IMG/VR virus record: IMGVR_UViG_3300027833_001691
Span: 1-28,549 of that record
Reading direction: 5' to 3' (one strand)
DNA from: a virus
DNA length: 28,549 bases
Position numbers and translations under genes: made by a program. The notes beneath the pieces were generated by a model that did not search any database, had not been told where the DNA came from, and saw only the letters and a list, made by a program, of their open reading frames with translations. Positions 2,166 through 27,395 of this stretch are shown piece by piece (within the stretch, counting starts at the first letter, position 1; each line of letters starts with the position of its first letter).

Positions 2166-2526
2166 CAATTGAACCTGGATATCTCCAAGCCCAGATAGCA
2201 ACAAGTACCATAAAGATTCCGCTGTATGCTACAGCCTTCATATTACCTGTTGTATACAAAAGGAATGCTAACGATGATGACATTACTATAATCATCGCAT
2301 ACTTGCCTTTGGTAGGAAATACACTTTTTTGCGTCCAGTTAGTTAAGAACGGTCCAAAGTATTTGTGATTGTAAATCCAGGCATGCATCCTTGGTGAACT
2401 CTTTGCAAAGCAATAAGCCGCAAATACCAAAAATATGCTGAACGGAATACCAGGAACAATCACTCCTATGTATGCCATGCCAAGTGATAGGAAACCAAGT
2501 CCTAGCCATAAGTATTTTTTAATCAT
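2113..2526 (-). CDS. DUF454 (YbaN-like) inner-membrane protein
   Basis: A 137-aa protein. The segment [24 protein letters not shown], followed by [19 protein letters not shown], matches the DUF454/YbaN core (PGLP..PFLL.A..CFARSSPR.H.WL..H..FGP). Three to four hydrophobic segments are visible: about residues 6-20, 24-42, 76-93 and 96-113. Function is unknown in all hosts. Its ATG overlaps the stop of the ALAS gene (ATGA), so the two are translationally coupled. That suggests a job linked to tetrapyrrole production or the membrane during infection, but this is inference from gene order only. Confidence 0.8.
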
Positions 2527-3722
2527 TTATTAAGCACCTCCTTGAGTGCATTGACTAAGTTCTCCAACATTTCATCTGTGTGAAATGGTGTTGGAGCAAT
2601 CCTTAATCTTTCAGTACCCTCTGCGACAGTTGGGTAGTTTATTGGTTGAATATAGATGCCATAATCGTTTAATAACGTATCGCTCATCTCTTTGCATTTA
2701 AACGCATCTCTAATCATTACAGGGACAATATGAGTACTTGCTTCTTCATGTATTTCAATATTGTTCTCGTGTAATAGTTGTTTGAGTTTGCGTGTTGTCG
2801 CCTGGTGTTTATCTCTAAGTTCCGGATGGTCTCTGAGATATTTCACACTTGCCAAAGCACCTGCACAAAGTACAGGGCTAAGGCTCGTGGTAAAAATAAA
2901 GCCTGAAGCTACAGAACGGACAGTGTCAATAACAACAGCGTCCCCTGCTATGTATCCTCCTGTAATTCCGAAGGCTTTTCCTAGCGTACCGTTTACGATA
3001 TCTACTTGATGTTGCAAGCCTAGTTTTTCTAAGTGGCCTGCTCCTTGTTCCCCATATAAGCCTACGGCATGAACTTCATCAATGTACGTCATCGCCCCAT
3101 ACTTGGTTGCTAGATCGCAAATCTCTTTGATAGGAGAGACATCACCGTCCATGCTATACACCGACTCAAATACAACGCACGGCGTACCGCCGTTCGTGGC
3201 TACTTCTCTGAGTTTATCTTCGAGATCTCCCATGTCATTGTGCTTCCATATGATCTTGTCAGCACCACTGTGTCTTATCCCTTGGATCAAAGATGCGTGA
3301 TTTTTACTATCACTTAAGAACACAATGTCGGGAATGATTTGTTTTAAGGAGATGAGTGTCCACTCATTTGCGACATACGCAGAACTGTATAATAGCGCAC
3401 TCTCCTTGCTATGCAAGGACGCTAGTTCATGTTCAAGCGCAACGTGATAGTGTGAAGTTCCTCCAATGTTACGAGTTCCTCCACTACCAGCACCTGTTTG
3501 ATTCAATGCTGTGTGCATTGCATCAATGACAACAGAATTTTGTCCCATTCCGAGGTAATCATTTGAACACCAGTTTACAATCTCTTTGATTGCATACTTG
3601 CCGTACCAAATAGCTTTAGGAAACTTTCCGCGTTCTCTGAGTATATCATTGAATACACGGTACTTACCTTCCTGTTTCAGTTGTTTGAGTTTTTGTTCAA
3701 ATGGGGCTTTATCTATTGTCAT
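2523..3722 (-). CDS. hemA: 5-aminolevulinate synthase (ALAS)
   Basis: A 399-aa, PLP-dependent alpha-oxoamine synthase that condenses glycine and succinyl-CoA to 5-aminolevulinate, the first step of tetrapyrrole synthesis by the Shemin route. Visible motifs: NDYLGMG (54-60), [13 protein letters not shown] (77-89), [10 protein letters not shown] (D215 and H218 contact PLP) and GTLGKAFG, with K249 the expected Schiff-base lysine (K248 in Rhodobacter capsulatus ALAS). The C-terminal [19 protein letters not shown] distinguishes ALAS from the related BioF and KBL enzymes. The length is that of bacterial ALAS and no key residue is missing. It overlaps both neighbours by ATGA. ALAS is typical of alphaproteobacteria, so it was probably acquired from such a host (inference). 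Confidence 0.95.
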
Positions 3723-7922: not shown

Positions 7923-8191
7923 TGCCAGGAGTAGCACGTAAGGGTAAAGACATTGCAATAGGAGTAGTGAGAACTGGACGTACAACAGTTTTTGCTAACA
8001 ACCAACCTATTGCTACTGTAGGTGATTTGATTGCACCACACATACCTGGTGGCCCACATTCTGCTAGTGTTGTTGTAGGTTACGAACCTACAGTATATGC
8101 TGAGTCAAGAGAAGTTGCACGAGAAGGTGATGCTACTAGTTGCGGCCACCCATTATCAACAGGATCGTCAAACGTTTTTGCTGGCGACTAA
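7922..8191 (+). CDS. PAAR-motif tail spike tip protein
   Basis: An 89-aa protein starting at ATG 7922, overlapping the previous stop. It shows the PAAR pattern: MPGVARKGKD with IAxGxV repeats, then VGDLIAPHIPGGPHSASVV, then AREGDATSCGHPLSTGSSNVFAGD, with His and Cys residues placed to bind the metal at the cone tip. PAAR proteins cap the membrane-piercing spike of contractile tails; T4 gp5.4 is the phage equivalent. The length is typical. Its last 24 nt overlap the end of the opposing lipase gene. Confidence 0.85.
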   Translation: MPGVARKGKDIAIGVVRTGRTTVFANNQPIATVGDLIAPHIPGGPHSASVVVGYEPTVYAESREVAREGDATSCGHPLSTGSSNVFAGD

Positions 8192-8944
8192 CTTACTAAT
8201 GTGTTTGATGTACTCATCCATTGAATGATCTGAGAAGTTATCAATCTTACCTTGCTTGATACCCATCCACATGCCACGCATTTTATCTTTAAACATCTGC
8301 CAGCCAGTAGGCTTACGAAGGTTGCCATATGCATTTAAGTAATGCTGATTACCACAGTGTCTAAAGCCCATAAGTGCTAGAGGAACAGTTGTAACTATAT
8401 CGTTGTTGTTCTTCCATCTGTGATGTACAGTGCCAAAGCTCTTTACGTAAGTAGGCCATCCTACTCTTGGTGAACCATATGTGTATAGTTCCTCTGGATT
8501 GTTTAGTGTTGTATCACACTCGCAACGATTGGCCATAATAGTTGCCATTGCTGCACCTAAACTATGTCCGCATATCCATAACTTCTTGCCTACATTAACT
8601 GTACGTGCAATATCTTCGCACACCATAGGCCAAAGTTCGTCTACTTCGTCTTTGAAACCTTTGTGTACTCTACTAATTGTTTCAGCGATAACAGGCAAAG
8701 CATTTAGATCTGCTTTGATATCATTAAACTCTGTTGGTTGTGTTCCGCGACACGCAATTACCAAGTCTTCTTTGTTCATAAAGCGGTATGCTTGTGCGCC
8801 TTCTTTGTTATAGAACTCAACAGTTGTGAATCCTAATTTTTTTACTTGACTTTTAACCTCTTTGACATTATCATTATACGCAATACTAGACAGTTTTGCA
8901 AATAATAATGAACGCTCAGGAAAAGACATTTTTGTTATAGACAT
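8168..8944 (-). CDS. Class 3 lipase (alpha/beta hydrolase)
   Basis: A 258-aa protein with a complete lipase-3 triad. GHSLGAAMA carries the nucleophile S128, NNDIVTTVP has D182, and DHSMDEYI has H240. CRGTQP (about 65-70) matches the conserved strand before the oxyanion region, and YGSPRVGW follows the nucleophile elbow as usual. There is no signal peptide. The enzyme should hydrolyse acyl esters of lipids; in infection it may act on the host membrane at lysis or on the envelope at entry (inference). A late box (8979-8986) precedes it. It converges on, and overlaps, the PAAR gene. Confidence 0.9.
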   Translation of the reverse strand: MSITKMSFPERSLLFAKLSSIAYNDNVKEVKSQVKKLGFTTVEFYNKEGAQAYRFMNKEDLVIACRGTQPTEFNDIKADLNALPVIAETISRVHKGFKDEVDELWPMVCEDIARTVNVGKKLWICGHSLGAAMATIMANRCECDTTLNNPEELYTYGSPRVGWPTYVKSFGTVHHRWKNNNDIVTTVPLALMGFRHCGNQHYLNAYGNLRKPTGWQMFKDKMRGMWMGIKQGKIDNFSDHSMDEYIKHISKLVASKNV

Positions 8945-14361: not shown

Positions 14362-14770
14362 ATTAATAAAAGAACTTGAAGAGCTTGTAAATGAAACCAT
14401 TGATGCGAGTATGTTTCCCTATCAAAAGGGTAACAGTATACGCATTGGATCTTTTATTGTGCGTTGTAATAAACGTGGCTTTTACAAAGTATATGATTGT
14501 GGGAACAATACACTAGTTACTGAAGCATTCTGTAAGACCAGTGCTGTTGCAATAGCAAAGACACTAAGTCAAGGGCAAGCGGTAATTAACAATATATTAG
14601 TCATTGACAAAGATATACAAAAGTGGTATAATGATTGCATATTCTATAAACATAATATGCGAGCTACAAAAGATTCATTTAAGCATGATATTATCTTAAA
14701 TAGATATGAAATTGCTAAAGATAAAACTTGCCATGCGAAAGAACAGTTAGATAAATACATTTATGCGTAA
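14342..14770 (+). CDS. Conserved marine-phage hypothetical protein
   Basis: A 142-aa protein, MTSKNLKLIKELEELVNETI. The part IRIGSFIVRCNKRGFYKVYDCGNN is beta-strand rich, and EAFCKTSAVAIAKTLSQGQ is helical; the C-terminal half is helical with a pattern of Tyr, His and Lys. I recognise the general form from marine T4-like phages, but no function is known. It starts inside the previous gene. Confidence 0.7.
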   Translation: MTSKNLKLIKELEELVNETIDASMFPYQKGNSIRIGSFIVRCNKRGFYKVYDCGNNTLVTEAFCKTSAVAIAKTLSQGQAVINNILVIDKDIQKWYNDCIFYKHNMRATKDSFKHDIILNRYEIAKDKTCHAKEQLDKYIYA

Positions 14771-14816: not shown

Positions 14817-15701
14817 ATGAACATACATGAAATATCAAAACCAGTAACATCAGCATCGCTGAATGAGAGCCTAGCTAAAAAGTTTGGCCAAAAGATTAAT
14901 ATCGCAAAATTCACGCTTGAGCAACTACAAGATGCTCGCAACAGAATTAGAACAAAACTAAGTCAAGTTGAAACAAACGAAAGTTTCGACAGTGTCCACA
15001 CTAACGAAAGCTACCAAAAGTCAAAACTCTTCCTAGACGTTTTAAATGCTGCAATTAGTGAACAAACAGACATCCAAGAAGCTAAGCCGGACTTCCTAGA
15101 CTTAGACAAAGATGGCGACAAAAAAGAGCCAATGAAAAAAGCTGCTAAAGACAAGAAAGCAAAAAAGAAAACTGATGAGTCTGTAGTAACTGAAGGCGCA
15201 GAAGATCAAGCTGAACTAGTAATGGCTTCCAAAGACATGGTTGACAGATTAACTGGTTGGATGGAAGACACAGCAGAAATGCAGTCAGAGTCAATGTTAG
15301 AACTAGCTGATGCAATCCGTGATGAAATGGGTAGTGAAAAGTCAGAAGCGTTTACAGCGGCAGTTAAGCCAAGCCTAGAAGCATTGTACACAGCAATGGA
15401 GCAAACACGTATTGCACTAACAGGCGGTGTTGGTATGTTAACTGGCGAAAGTGATGCACCTATGATGGGTGATGAGCCAGCAATGGAGCCAACAGTTGAC
15501 GGCGACATGGACATGGCAGCTCCATTGGATCCAGATGCACCAGCAGAAGATGATGCGTTTGCAGCAGCTGATGCGGCAATGGGCGGAGATGATGAAGCTG
15601 GTCGTGCAAAGCGTGAAAGCATTCAACGCTCAAAAAAAAAGTTAGCTGAAATAAGCGACCAAGCACGTAGAATAACAACCATACTTTCAAAAAAAAAGTA
15701 A
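14817..15701 (+). CDS. Acidic structural or scaffold-type protein (short, zero-frame form)
   Basis: A 294-aa protein. The N-terminus (MNIHEISKPVTSASLNESLAKKFGQ) and KFTLEQLQDARNRIRTKLSQVE, then KPDFLDLDKDGDKKEPMKKA with an EF-hand-like Asp loop, are patterns of marine T4-like phage structural proteins. Residues 100-120 are Lys-rich, and the C-terminal third is very acidic (Asp/Ala/Met-rich). It ends in a run of lysines coded by nine A, with A-AAA-AAG directly followed by TAA. Reading continues without a break in the -1 frame, see 15698-16084. Its likely role is a virion or prohead component (inference). Confidence 0.75.
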   Translation: MNIHEISKPVTSASLNESLAKKFGQKINIAKFTLEQLQDARNRIRTKLSQVETNESFDSVHTNESYQKSKLFLDVLNAAISEQTDIQEAKPDFLDLDKDGDKKEPMKKAAKDKKAKKKTDESVVTEGAEDQAELVMASKDMVDRLTGWMEDTAEMQSESMLELADAIRDEMGSEKSEAFTAAVKPSLEALYTAMEQTRIALTGGVGMLTGESDAPMMGDEPAMEPTVDGDMDMAAPLDPDAPAEDDAFAAADAAMGGDDEAGRAKRESIQRSKKKLAEISDQARRITTILSKKK

Positions 15702-15730
15702 CCGAAGCTGAGGTTGACAGCCCTGCAGCT
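15692..15730 (+). promoter_or_regulatory. Candidate programmed -1 frameshift signal
   Basis: In the zero frame A AAA AAG occupies 15692-15698, the same heptamer as in E. coli dnaX, and the stop TAA follows immediately. Seven nt later, AGCTG (15706-15710) can pair with CAGCT (15726-15730), with GG/CC inside. A 16-bp palindrome, AAACTTG-TA-CAAGTTT, lies at 15731-15746. After a -1 slip the frame is open to 16084. The nine-A run could equally allow transcriptional slippage. Confidence 0.6.
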
Positions 15731-16084
15731 AAACTTGTACAAGTTTTAAGAACAGTAATAGGCAGCGCAGACCAAAATGGTCACGCTGTCTTTTTGCATT
15801 TTGACAAGCCAAAACCTGAAGCAATCAAAAAAGGTGCTAAGAACATAGACCTAAACAAACTGATGCAAAACGTAGGTGCAGAGTCATTTGACTTTGGCAC
15901 GTTTAAGGCTGCATATGATACTGATGCTAGAGTAAAAGCAATGACAAAAGATTTCAGCAAGTATGGTATTGAACCTAAGACCAAAAATGAATTAGACAAC
16001 GGCGACGATGTGTCCGCAGGTGCTGGCAATGATAATACTGTAAGCAACATGGCTAAATCAGCAACAGACCTAAGCGATCTATAA
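15698..16084 (+). CDS. -1 frame extension of the 14817 protein
   Basis: A 128-codon open frame that reads VTEAEVDSPAAKLVQVLRTV, then IGSADQNGHAVFLHFDKPKP and onward to LSDL. No ATG or GTG exists in the frame before the conserved-looking sequence begins; the only alternative is a TTG (15794) without a ribosome site in the middle of it. The sequence has good coding character throughout, including a helix (AKLVQVLRTVIG) and a FGTFKAAYDTDARVKAMTKDF segment. If the slip occurs, the fused product has 422 residues. If it does not, this stretch would be an untranslated remnant. Confidence 0.65.
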   Translation, partial: VTEAEVDSPAAKLVQVLRTVIGSADQNGHAVFLHFDKPKPEAIKKGAKNIDLNKLMQNVGAESFDFGTFKAAYDTDARVKAMTKDFSKYGIEPKTKNELDNGDDVSAGAGNDNTVSNMAKSATDLSDL

Positions 16085-16090
16085 TATAGG

Positions 16091-16131
16091 TTGACTTTCC
16101 TTTAATTAGATAGTATACTAATTGTTAAATA
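16091..16131 (+). promoter_or_regulatory. Sigma70-like promoter plus late-type box for the exonuclease gene
   Basis: TTGACT (16091-16096), 17 nt, TATACT (16114-16119). The perfect palindrome TAGTATACTA (16111-16120) and the wider pair AATTAG/CTAATT cover the -10. A TTAAATA box follows at 16125-16131. This suggests early transcription, possibly repressed, with a late option. Confidence 0.65.
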
Positions 16132-26419: not shown

Positions 26420-26462
26420 ATAAGTATTATTACTTACAACAAAGGTCGGGACAAATTTGAAA

Positions 26463-27395
26463 ATGAAAATTATCGCAGGGAACGCTAACCCAACTTTAGC
26501 CCAAGAAATTGCAGACTATTCGTTTGCACCGTTATTGCCAACTAAAATTAGTACATTTGCAGATGGCGAAATAAGCGTAGAGTTTTTAGACAACATCAGA
26601 GGCGAGGATGTGTTTATTATACAAAGTACATCAACTCCTGTTAATGATAGTTTAATGGAACTGTTAATTATGATTGACGCTGCCAAGCGGTCAAGTGCTA
26701 AACGCATTACAGCAGTTATTCCATACTTTGGTTACGCACGTCAGGATCGTAAAAGCGCAAGTAGGACACCTATAACAGCAAAACTAGTTGCTAACTTGCT
26801 TACAACATCGGGTGCAGATAGAGTGCTTACGATGGACTTACACGCAGGACAGATTCAAGGCTTCTTTGATATTCCAGTTGATGACTTAACAAGCCGTTTA
26901 GTATTTGCTAAAGACATTAAACGTAATGTTATTATTGAAGATGGTACTGTATTTGTAAGTCCTGATGCAGGCGGTGTTGTTCGCGCTAGGAAGTTTGCAG
27001 ACATGTTCCACGCAGACATTGCTATAGTAGACAAGATGCGTCCTATGGCAGGTAGAAGTGAAGTCATGAACTTGATCGGCGATGTTAAAGGTAAACACGC
27101 CATTCTAGTTGATGACATCATTGACAGTGGTGGTACATTATGCAACGCAGCCAAAGCAATTATGGATGCAGGTGCATTGTCAGTTCGTGCATATATCACA
27201 CACGGCGTACTGTCAGGCGAAGCATGTAATAAGGTTGAAAAGAGTGTACTCACAGAACTAGTAGTTGCAGATACAATAAAGGATCATTGTCCTAAAAGTT
27301 GTAAAAAGACACGACAGGTTAGTGTTGCACCTTTGTTTGGTGAAGCTATTCGTCGCATAACTAACGAAGAGTCAGTAAGCAGTTTGTTTGGTTAA
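26463..27395 (+). CDS. prs: Ribose-phosphate pyrophosphokinase (PRPP synthetase)
   Basis: A 310-aa protein from ATG 26463 (MKIIAGN, the family N-terminus). A TTG at 26457, 6 nt after the GGTCGGG ribosome site, would add two residues and is also possible. Motifs: the catalytic-flexible [11 protein letters not shown] (91-101), [11 protein letters not shown] with D125/H127, KMRP (191-194) and the PRPP loop [11 protein letters not shown] (216-226). It makes PRPP from ribose-5-phosphate and ATP for nucleotide synthesis, and full length and all motifs suggest an active enzyme. It works alongside NrdA/NrdB. Confidence 0.95.

Follow-up and report, generated by a model that had tools for sequence, protein, structure and literature searches.

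The window analyzed here is the whole of a 28.5-kb record (28,549 nt) from an uncultured virus. On its forward strand, a gene for a 294-residue protein (14817-15701; the N part) ends in ...CTT TCA AAA AAA AAG TAA, with sense codons through 15698 and its stop codon at 15699-15701. The slip site with its stop (TCA AAA AAA AAG TAA, 15687-15701) includes a run of nine A's at 15689-15697 and the in-phase heptamer A_AAA_AAG at 15692-15698. On the same strand, the −1 frame (15689-16084; the C part) reads KKKVTEAEVDSP...DLSDL and stays open for 128 codons past the slip, with its last sense base at 16081 and its stop codon at 16082-16084. The codons directly 3′ of the slip, GTA ACC GAA GCT (15698-15709), encode V-T-E-A, which resembles a prohead protease site of the form [LIV]-x-E. 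The only ATG, GTG or TTG in the first 150 nt of the −1 frame is a TTG at 15794, and the C part is easily overlooked by gene callers because it has no start codon. An initial annotation, made from the sequence alone, had proposed that −1 frameshifting at this dnaX-type heptamer with its immediate stop extends the protein from 294 to 422 residues. Both lengths, the heptamer with its stop, the 128 further codons and the lack of a usable start codon for the second frame were read correctly. The label of structural protein rests on a match of the N part to phrog_14154 (virion structural protein, E 8.8e-11), which makes it a likely prohead or virion protein.

Several other features surround the gene pair. 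A perfect TTGACA-17-TATAAT promoter sequence with an extended −10 lies at 14604-14632, 213 nt upstream of the start of the N part, and a perfect TTGACA-17-TATAAT occurs at a like place in five other loci (L001, L009, L064, L087 and L122). A 10/12 promoter match at 16091-16119 precedes an exonuclease gene. Elsewhere the window holds an AlgH-like gene (152-706), a ribose-phosphate pyrophosphokinase gene (26457-27395) and, on the reverse strand, an aminotransferase-like gene that by eye resembles 5-aminolevulinate synthase (2523-3722) and an esterase/lipase-like gene (8168-8944).

Conservation of the split and of the slip site

In IMG/VR, 74 relatives of the C part were found, with identities of 53-93%, and more than 500 of the N part; the two parts adjoin in 147 of the loci fetched. 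After the window was added and the set was dereplicated at 90% nucleotide identity, 83 loci with both parts remained. In 69 of them, the window included, the junction has an A-run, and a C gene with a separate start was not seen; in every one of these 69 loci, which come from many metagenomes, the frame of the C part is −1. In the remaining 14, the C part stands alone with its own ATG, usually behind a GGA-type ribosome site, and its frame relative to the N part is the same in seven, −1 in four and +1 in three. The A-run is absent from this stand-alone class except in one locus (L020), where a shortened A6G is retained. Since the frame in the stand-alone class is random, this class serves as a natural control: the frame of the C part is free without a slip site and fixed with one. 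The initial annotation had counted homologs with their own ATG for the C part against a frameshift. Such homologs do exist, but with the A-run lost and the frame random they act as a control and not as a refutation.

The 69 A-run loci are related by descent and cannot be counted as separate events; single-linkage clustering by C identity groups them into 20 clusters at 60% and 10 at 50%. When 80 loci were picked by the N part alone, seven failed the first screen for the C part; in six of the seven the A-run is still followed by a C-like −1 ORF, and the last ends at a contig edge. Aligning homologs had been suggested earlier as a check on the proposed frameshift, which the outcome supports: the split and the A-run are kept together in the whole A-run class, and no single-frame fused N-C homolog was seen among the relatives compared. 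Some sequencing platforms make errors in long A runs, and a miscounted homopolymer in what is truly a single-frame gene, a possibility raised by the initial annotation, would produce a split of this kind. This explanation can in practice be rejected, since 69 dereplicated loci, three of them with only A6, agree in the split, its phase and its direction, since phase and direction are also identical in the 72 stretches found by the pattern search described below, and since no fused homolog was seen.

A separate C protein could instead arise by reinitiation or internal initiation past the N stop codon. The stop codon adjoins the C part, and the ATG and ribosome site of the stand-alone relatives show that the C part can have a start of its own. 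However, in 44 of the 69 A-run loci the C frame contains no ATG, GTG or TTG between its last stop and a point 45 nt past the slip, that is, before the conserved region, and an ATG occurs there only in L105. Moreover, reinitiation would work in any frame and with no in-phase A-run, whereas every locus of the A-run class has the −1 frame and such a run, so that this route to the C protein appears very improbable.

One locus joins the two arrangements. In L020 (4929-5369), the C part lies in −1 relative to a slippery A_AAA_AAG, and that open frame also has its own ATG with a targeting-like N-terminus; this locus is a possible evolutionary intermediate. In a tree of the C domain, the stand-alone forms require about three changes; many forks are unsupported, and for that reason the tree does not fix the direction of the switch between frameshift and own start.

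A heptamer A_AAA_AA(G/A/C) lies in phase with the zero frame in all 69 A-run loci. The runs are A9G in 51 loci, A10T in 6, A6G in 5, A8G in 3, A9C in 3 and A7G in 1, and the run nearest the stop has at least eight A's in 63. Elsewhere in the N part, just 14 of 311 KK pairs are encoded by A_AAA_AAR. In E. coli, A_AAA_AAG is far more shift-prone than A_AAA_AAC or A_AAA_AAA (PMC5009743). The window carries a second TCA AAA AAA AAG (TCAAAAAAAAAG, 15630-15641) on the same strand, 57 nt 5′ of the slip site and in the same phase; a −1 slip there would end after K-V-S. Two runs of at least eight A's are present in the last 150 nt at 11 of the 69 loci, and such paired runs may possibly reflect tandem duplication of the slip region.

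A 24-base DNA pattern was composed of the slip site, the stop codon and GARG. Among 2.9 million viral contigs of IMG/VR it found 72 stretches, every one of them at the N-C gene pair; a profile search placed the N part in frame 0 and the C part in −1 in 70, and in the remaining two one side was too short to score, with a matching peptide there. The expectation for the extended pattern in shuffles of the window was 0.00. In genomes of bacteria and archaea (257 Gb), the 24-base pattern gave one match, in Paenibacillus; its flanks look unrelated, so no host was found by this search.

RNA structure downstream of the slip site

The initial annotation had named a hairpin at 15706-15730 as a possible stimulator of the shift. 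The hairpin is present on the forward strand, 7 nt past the heptamer, and remains a candidate stimulator, but its strength in the window is modest: −9.7 kcal/mol, with a z score of −1.7 alone, −0.8 in a 62-nt context and −1.9 against synonymous recoding, a null that keeps the protein and the pooled codon usage. Over the group, the first 48 nt past the slip have a mean z of −1.43 ± 0.19 against synonymous recoding, and 35% of the loci fall below −2. The strongest stems begin 5-11 nt past the slip and vary in sequence among loci (AAGCACTTGAAC/GTTCAAGTGCTT in L141 is one example); a strong stem-loop near the slip is found in about one third of the relatives, and most loci are without one. A 16-bp palindrome (AAACTTGTACAAGTTT) that had also been reported is present.

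A stronger hairpin, which the initial annotation did not mention, lies at 15760-15791, within the coding sequence of the C part (−17.5 kcal/mol, z −4.3; z −4.7 against synonymous recoding), and is followed by a T5 run, the whole spanning 15760-15795 on the forward strand. In the alignable subset of relatives, this second hairpin, 45-60 nt downstream, has a mean z of −2.4. In many relatives, A-run and stand-alone alike, the structure there goes beyond what codon constraint explains and takes at least two registers; at positions past this hairpin, z against synonymous recoding is mostly −0.1 to −0.5. Because the second hairpin is equally present in the stand-alone relatives, it is not a frameshift signal. 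It is terminator-like in form and could be an attenuator or terminator; a scan for intrinsic terminators did not list it.

RNA polymerase can slip on runs of about 8-9 or more A's. If polymerase slippage on A9 or A10 added an A to some of the mRNA, normal translation would give the same N-C fusion, and the runs, with A9 in 54 of 69 loci and A10 in 6, are longer than the A_AAA_AAG that a ribosome needs. Three observations argue against this explanation. In three dereplicated loci (L114, L120 and L125), the run in the overlap is no longer than A6, and these loci carry strong hairpins. Polymerase slippage would be expected to cause losses as well as gains, yet the C part is always in −1. Finally, structure is raised in RNA 3′ of the run, which would be untranscribed at the moment when the polymerase slips. 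On account of the A6 sites, the fixed direction and the raised structure, the ribosome is favored as the slipping agent, and polymerase slippage seems unlikely. Use of the site to make an N-C fusion by ribosomal slippage is, judging from the sequences, quite probable.

Capsid-targeting-like sequences and a relative with T4-type head genes

In phage T4, internal proteins carry an N-terminal propeptide of 10-19 residues that directs them to the prohead, and the protease gp21 cuts after L/I-x-E (PMC9026906). The N part begins with MNIHEISKPVTSASLNES in the window and with MNIxEIxKPVTAxxLNES as the family form; L15-N16 is invariant and E17 near-invariant, giving an L-N-E that matches the gp21 motif. 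Each of the 14 stand-alone C proteins carries L/I-x-E within its first 10 residues, as in MRVSDIILE, MKVFELYEA and MKVSEILKE, and in sequence these N-termini look like the T4 capsid-targeting propeptide. At the frameshift junction, [LIV]-x-E occurs no more than 9 residues past the lysines in 68 of the 69 A-run loci, compared with 27% in same-residue shuffles and 0.9% elsewhere in the C part. The valine of the junction is forced where TAA or TGA directly follows AAG and is read in −1; the glutamate is not forced. Junctions of other lengths keep the motif as well (KKDLTEA, KKKLTIHEA, KKKGLTLSEE and KKKGYQIGEA). T4 gp21 itself prefers L/I, not V (PMC9026906). Comparison across the relatives shows that the split, the slip site, the direction of the shift and the junction motif are conserved, that both frames are coding and that RNA structure is raised downstream.

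A 357-kb relative contig encodes T4-type gp20, gp21 and gp23 together with a cluster syntenic with the window. Its capsid protein has ...RYLAESATAG... close to the start, and ORFs of its syntenic cluster start with MRFQEFKTLLTEA, MKIKDVMVEMQ and MKINEIVLEQ. In the other records searched, which are mostly fragments (one other contig is 180 kb), gp23 was not found in 34 and gp20/gp21 was not found in 16. Small ORFs in the window between 9024 and 14361 start with MRYSDIKLVES, MLLRELYIEP, MLIRELTEA, MRITEIT and MKINELL and are candidates for capsid-targeted internal proteins.

Sequence and structure searches returned few matches. Isolate phages (INPHARED, tblastn, with the limits used) gave no match to the N or C part, apart from faint cyanophage matches of one N relative, and Pfam gave no match to either part. 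The N part is mostly helical, and is likely a T4-type prohead or internal protein. AlphaFold2 predicts that the C part is a small alpha/beta domain (pLDDT 78 overall and 84-93 over residues 11-100); this fold had no PDB match at E 0.001, and its best viral match was an uncharacterised protein (E 5.5e-3).

A proposed route into the phage head

We propose that the N and C frames would act as one expression unit. The majority of ribosomes would end at the TAA after SKKK and yield the 294-residue N protein, and a minority would slip −1 on A_AAA_AAG and yield the 422-residue N-C fusion. Since the N part has a putative propeptide of the capsid-targeting type, the fusion could bring the C domain along into the prohead, in a low and constant proportion. 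A gp21-type protease may then cut after the [LIV]-x-E just past the slip and so release the C domain to become an internal head protein. Where relatives lack the slip site, the C protein would enter the head alone, by means of its own start codon and targeting propeptide. The targeting-like starts of the stand-alone C proteins, the junction motif and the 357-kb relative with its T4-type genes together suggest that the frameshift lets the C domain enter the head fused; taken by itself, packaging and cleavage of the fusion has, in our estimate, close to an even chance of being correct. Alternatively, a real frameshift might serve a stoichiometric or regulatory purpose only, for example with the fusion acting outside the head and the C domain unpackaged. 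The fold of the C part has no match of known role, which leaves room for such a purpose; this alternative bears on packaging alone, and we regard it as a substantial possibility, albeit on balance a somewhat doubtful one. Against it stand the conserved [LIV]-x-E at the junction and the targeting-like N-termini with L/I-x-E of the stand-alone C proteins, which lie amid an ORF cluster with similar starts.

Among phages, frameshifting has been described chiefly in tail chaperones and coat proteins. No published description of an N-C frameshift of this kind, or of the C part, was found among the open-access papers searched, in agreement with the initial annotation as regards the frameshift. The nearest parallels are gene 10 of phages T7 and T3 and the coat proteins of phages A2 and Listeria A118/A500, in all of which a −1 shift close to the 3′ end of a structural gene adds a C-terminal extension to a minor share of the product (PMC5009743). 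In contrast, the gene here likely encodes a T4-type prohead or internal protein and not a coat protein; no match ties the C part to Ig-like domains, and in relatives it stands alone with a targeting-like N-terminus. Some T4-like phages have been reported to lack a frameshift in their tail chaperones (Vladimirov 2022, known here through its citation in PMC10885494). With E. coli dnaX the window shares A_AAA_AAG and a 3′ stem-loop, and in the dnaX of some bacteria the zero-frame stop directly follows the slip site, as in the window (PMC5009743). Unlike dnaX, the phage structural gene usually has A9 instead of A6, and a conserved upstream Shine-Dalgarno stimulator was not noticed.

The proposed packaging has parallels elsewhere. 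In retroviral Gag-Pol, fusion to a structural protein by frameshifting brings a minor protein into the particle, and proteolysis follows (PMC5009743). The likeness is one of analogy only: the virus here is a DNA phage, packaging and cleavage are proposed for it, and common descent is not claimed. With T4 internal proteins (PMC9026906) the likeness is that the stand-alone C proteins and the N part both have a short propeptide-like N-terminus containing L/I-x-E; the C part of the window differs in having no propeptide of its own, so that it would have to be targeted by way of the fusion. A Gag-Pol-like scheme in a DNA phage, in which cargo fused by frameshifting is packed at a fixed ratio and freed by a protease, and in which frameshift and targeting signal are interchangeable among relatives, is offered tentatively, as an idea not far short of even likelihood.

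Frameshifting at this site would be a conserved trait of a large, uncultured and mostly marine group of bacterial viruses, represented by at least 69 distinct sequences, and the 24-base pattern, which among the viral contigs hit only the N-C gene pair, can serve as its diagnostic. The two classes of relatives offer a natural experiment, in which the same domain is reached either by a frameshift or by a start of its own. The proposed fusion may provide a way, open to testing, by which a minor protein is loaded into a phage head.
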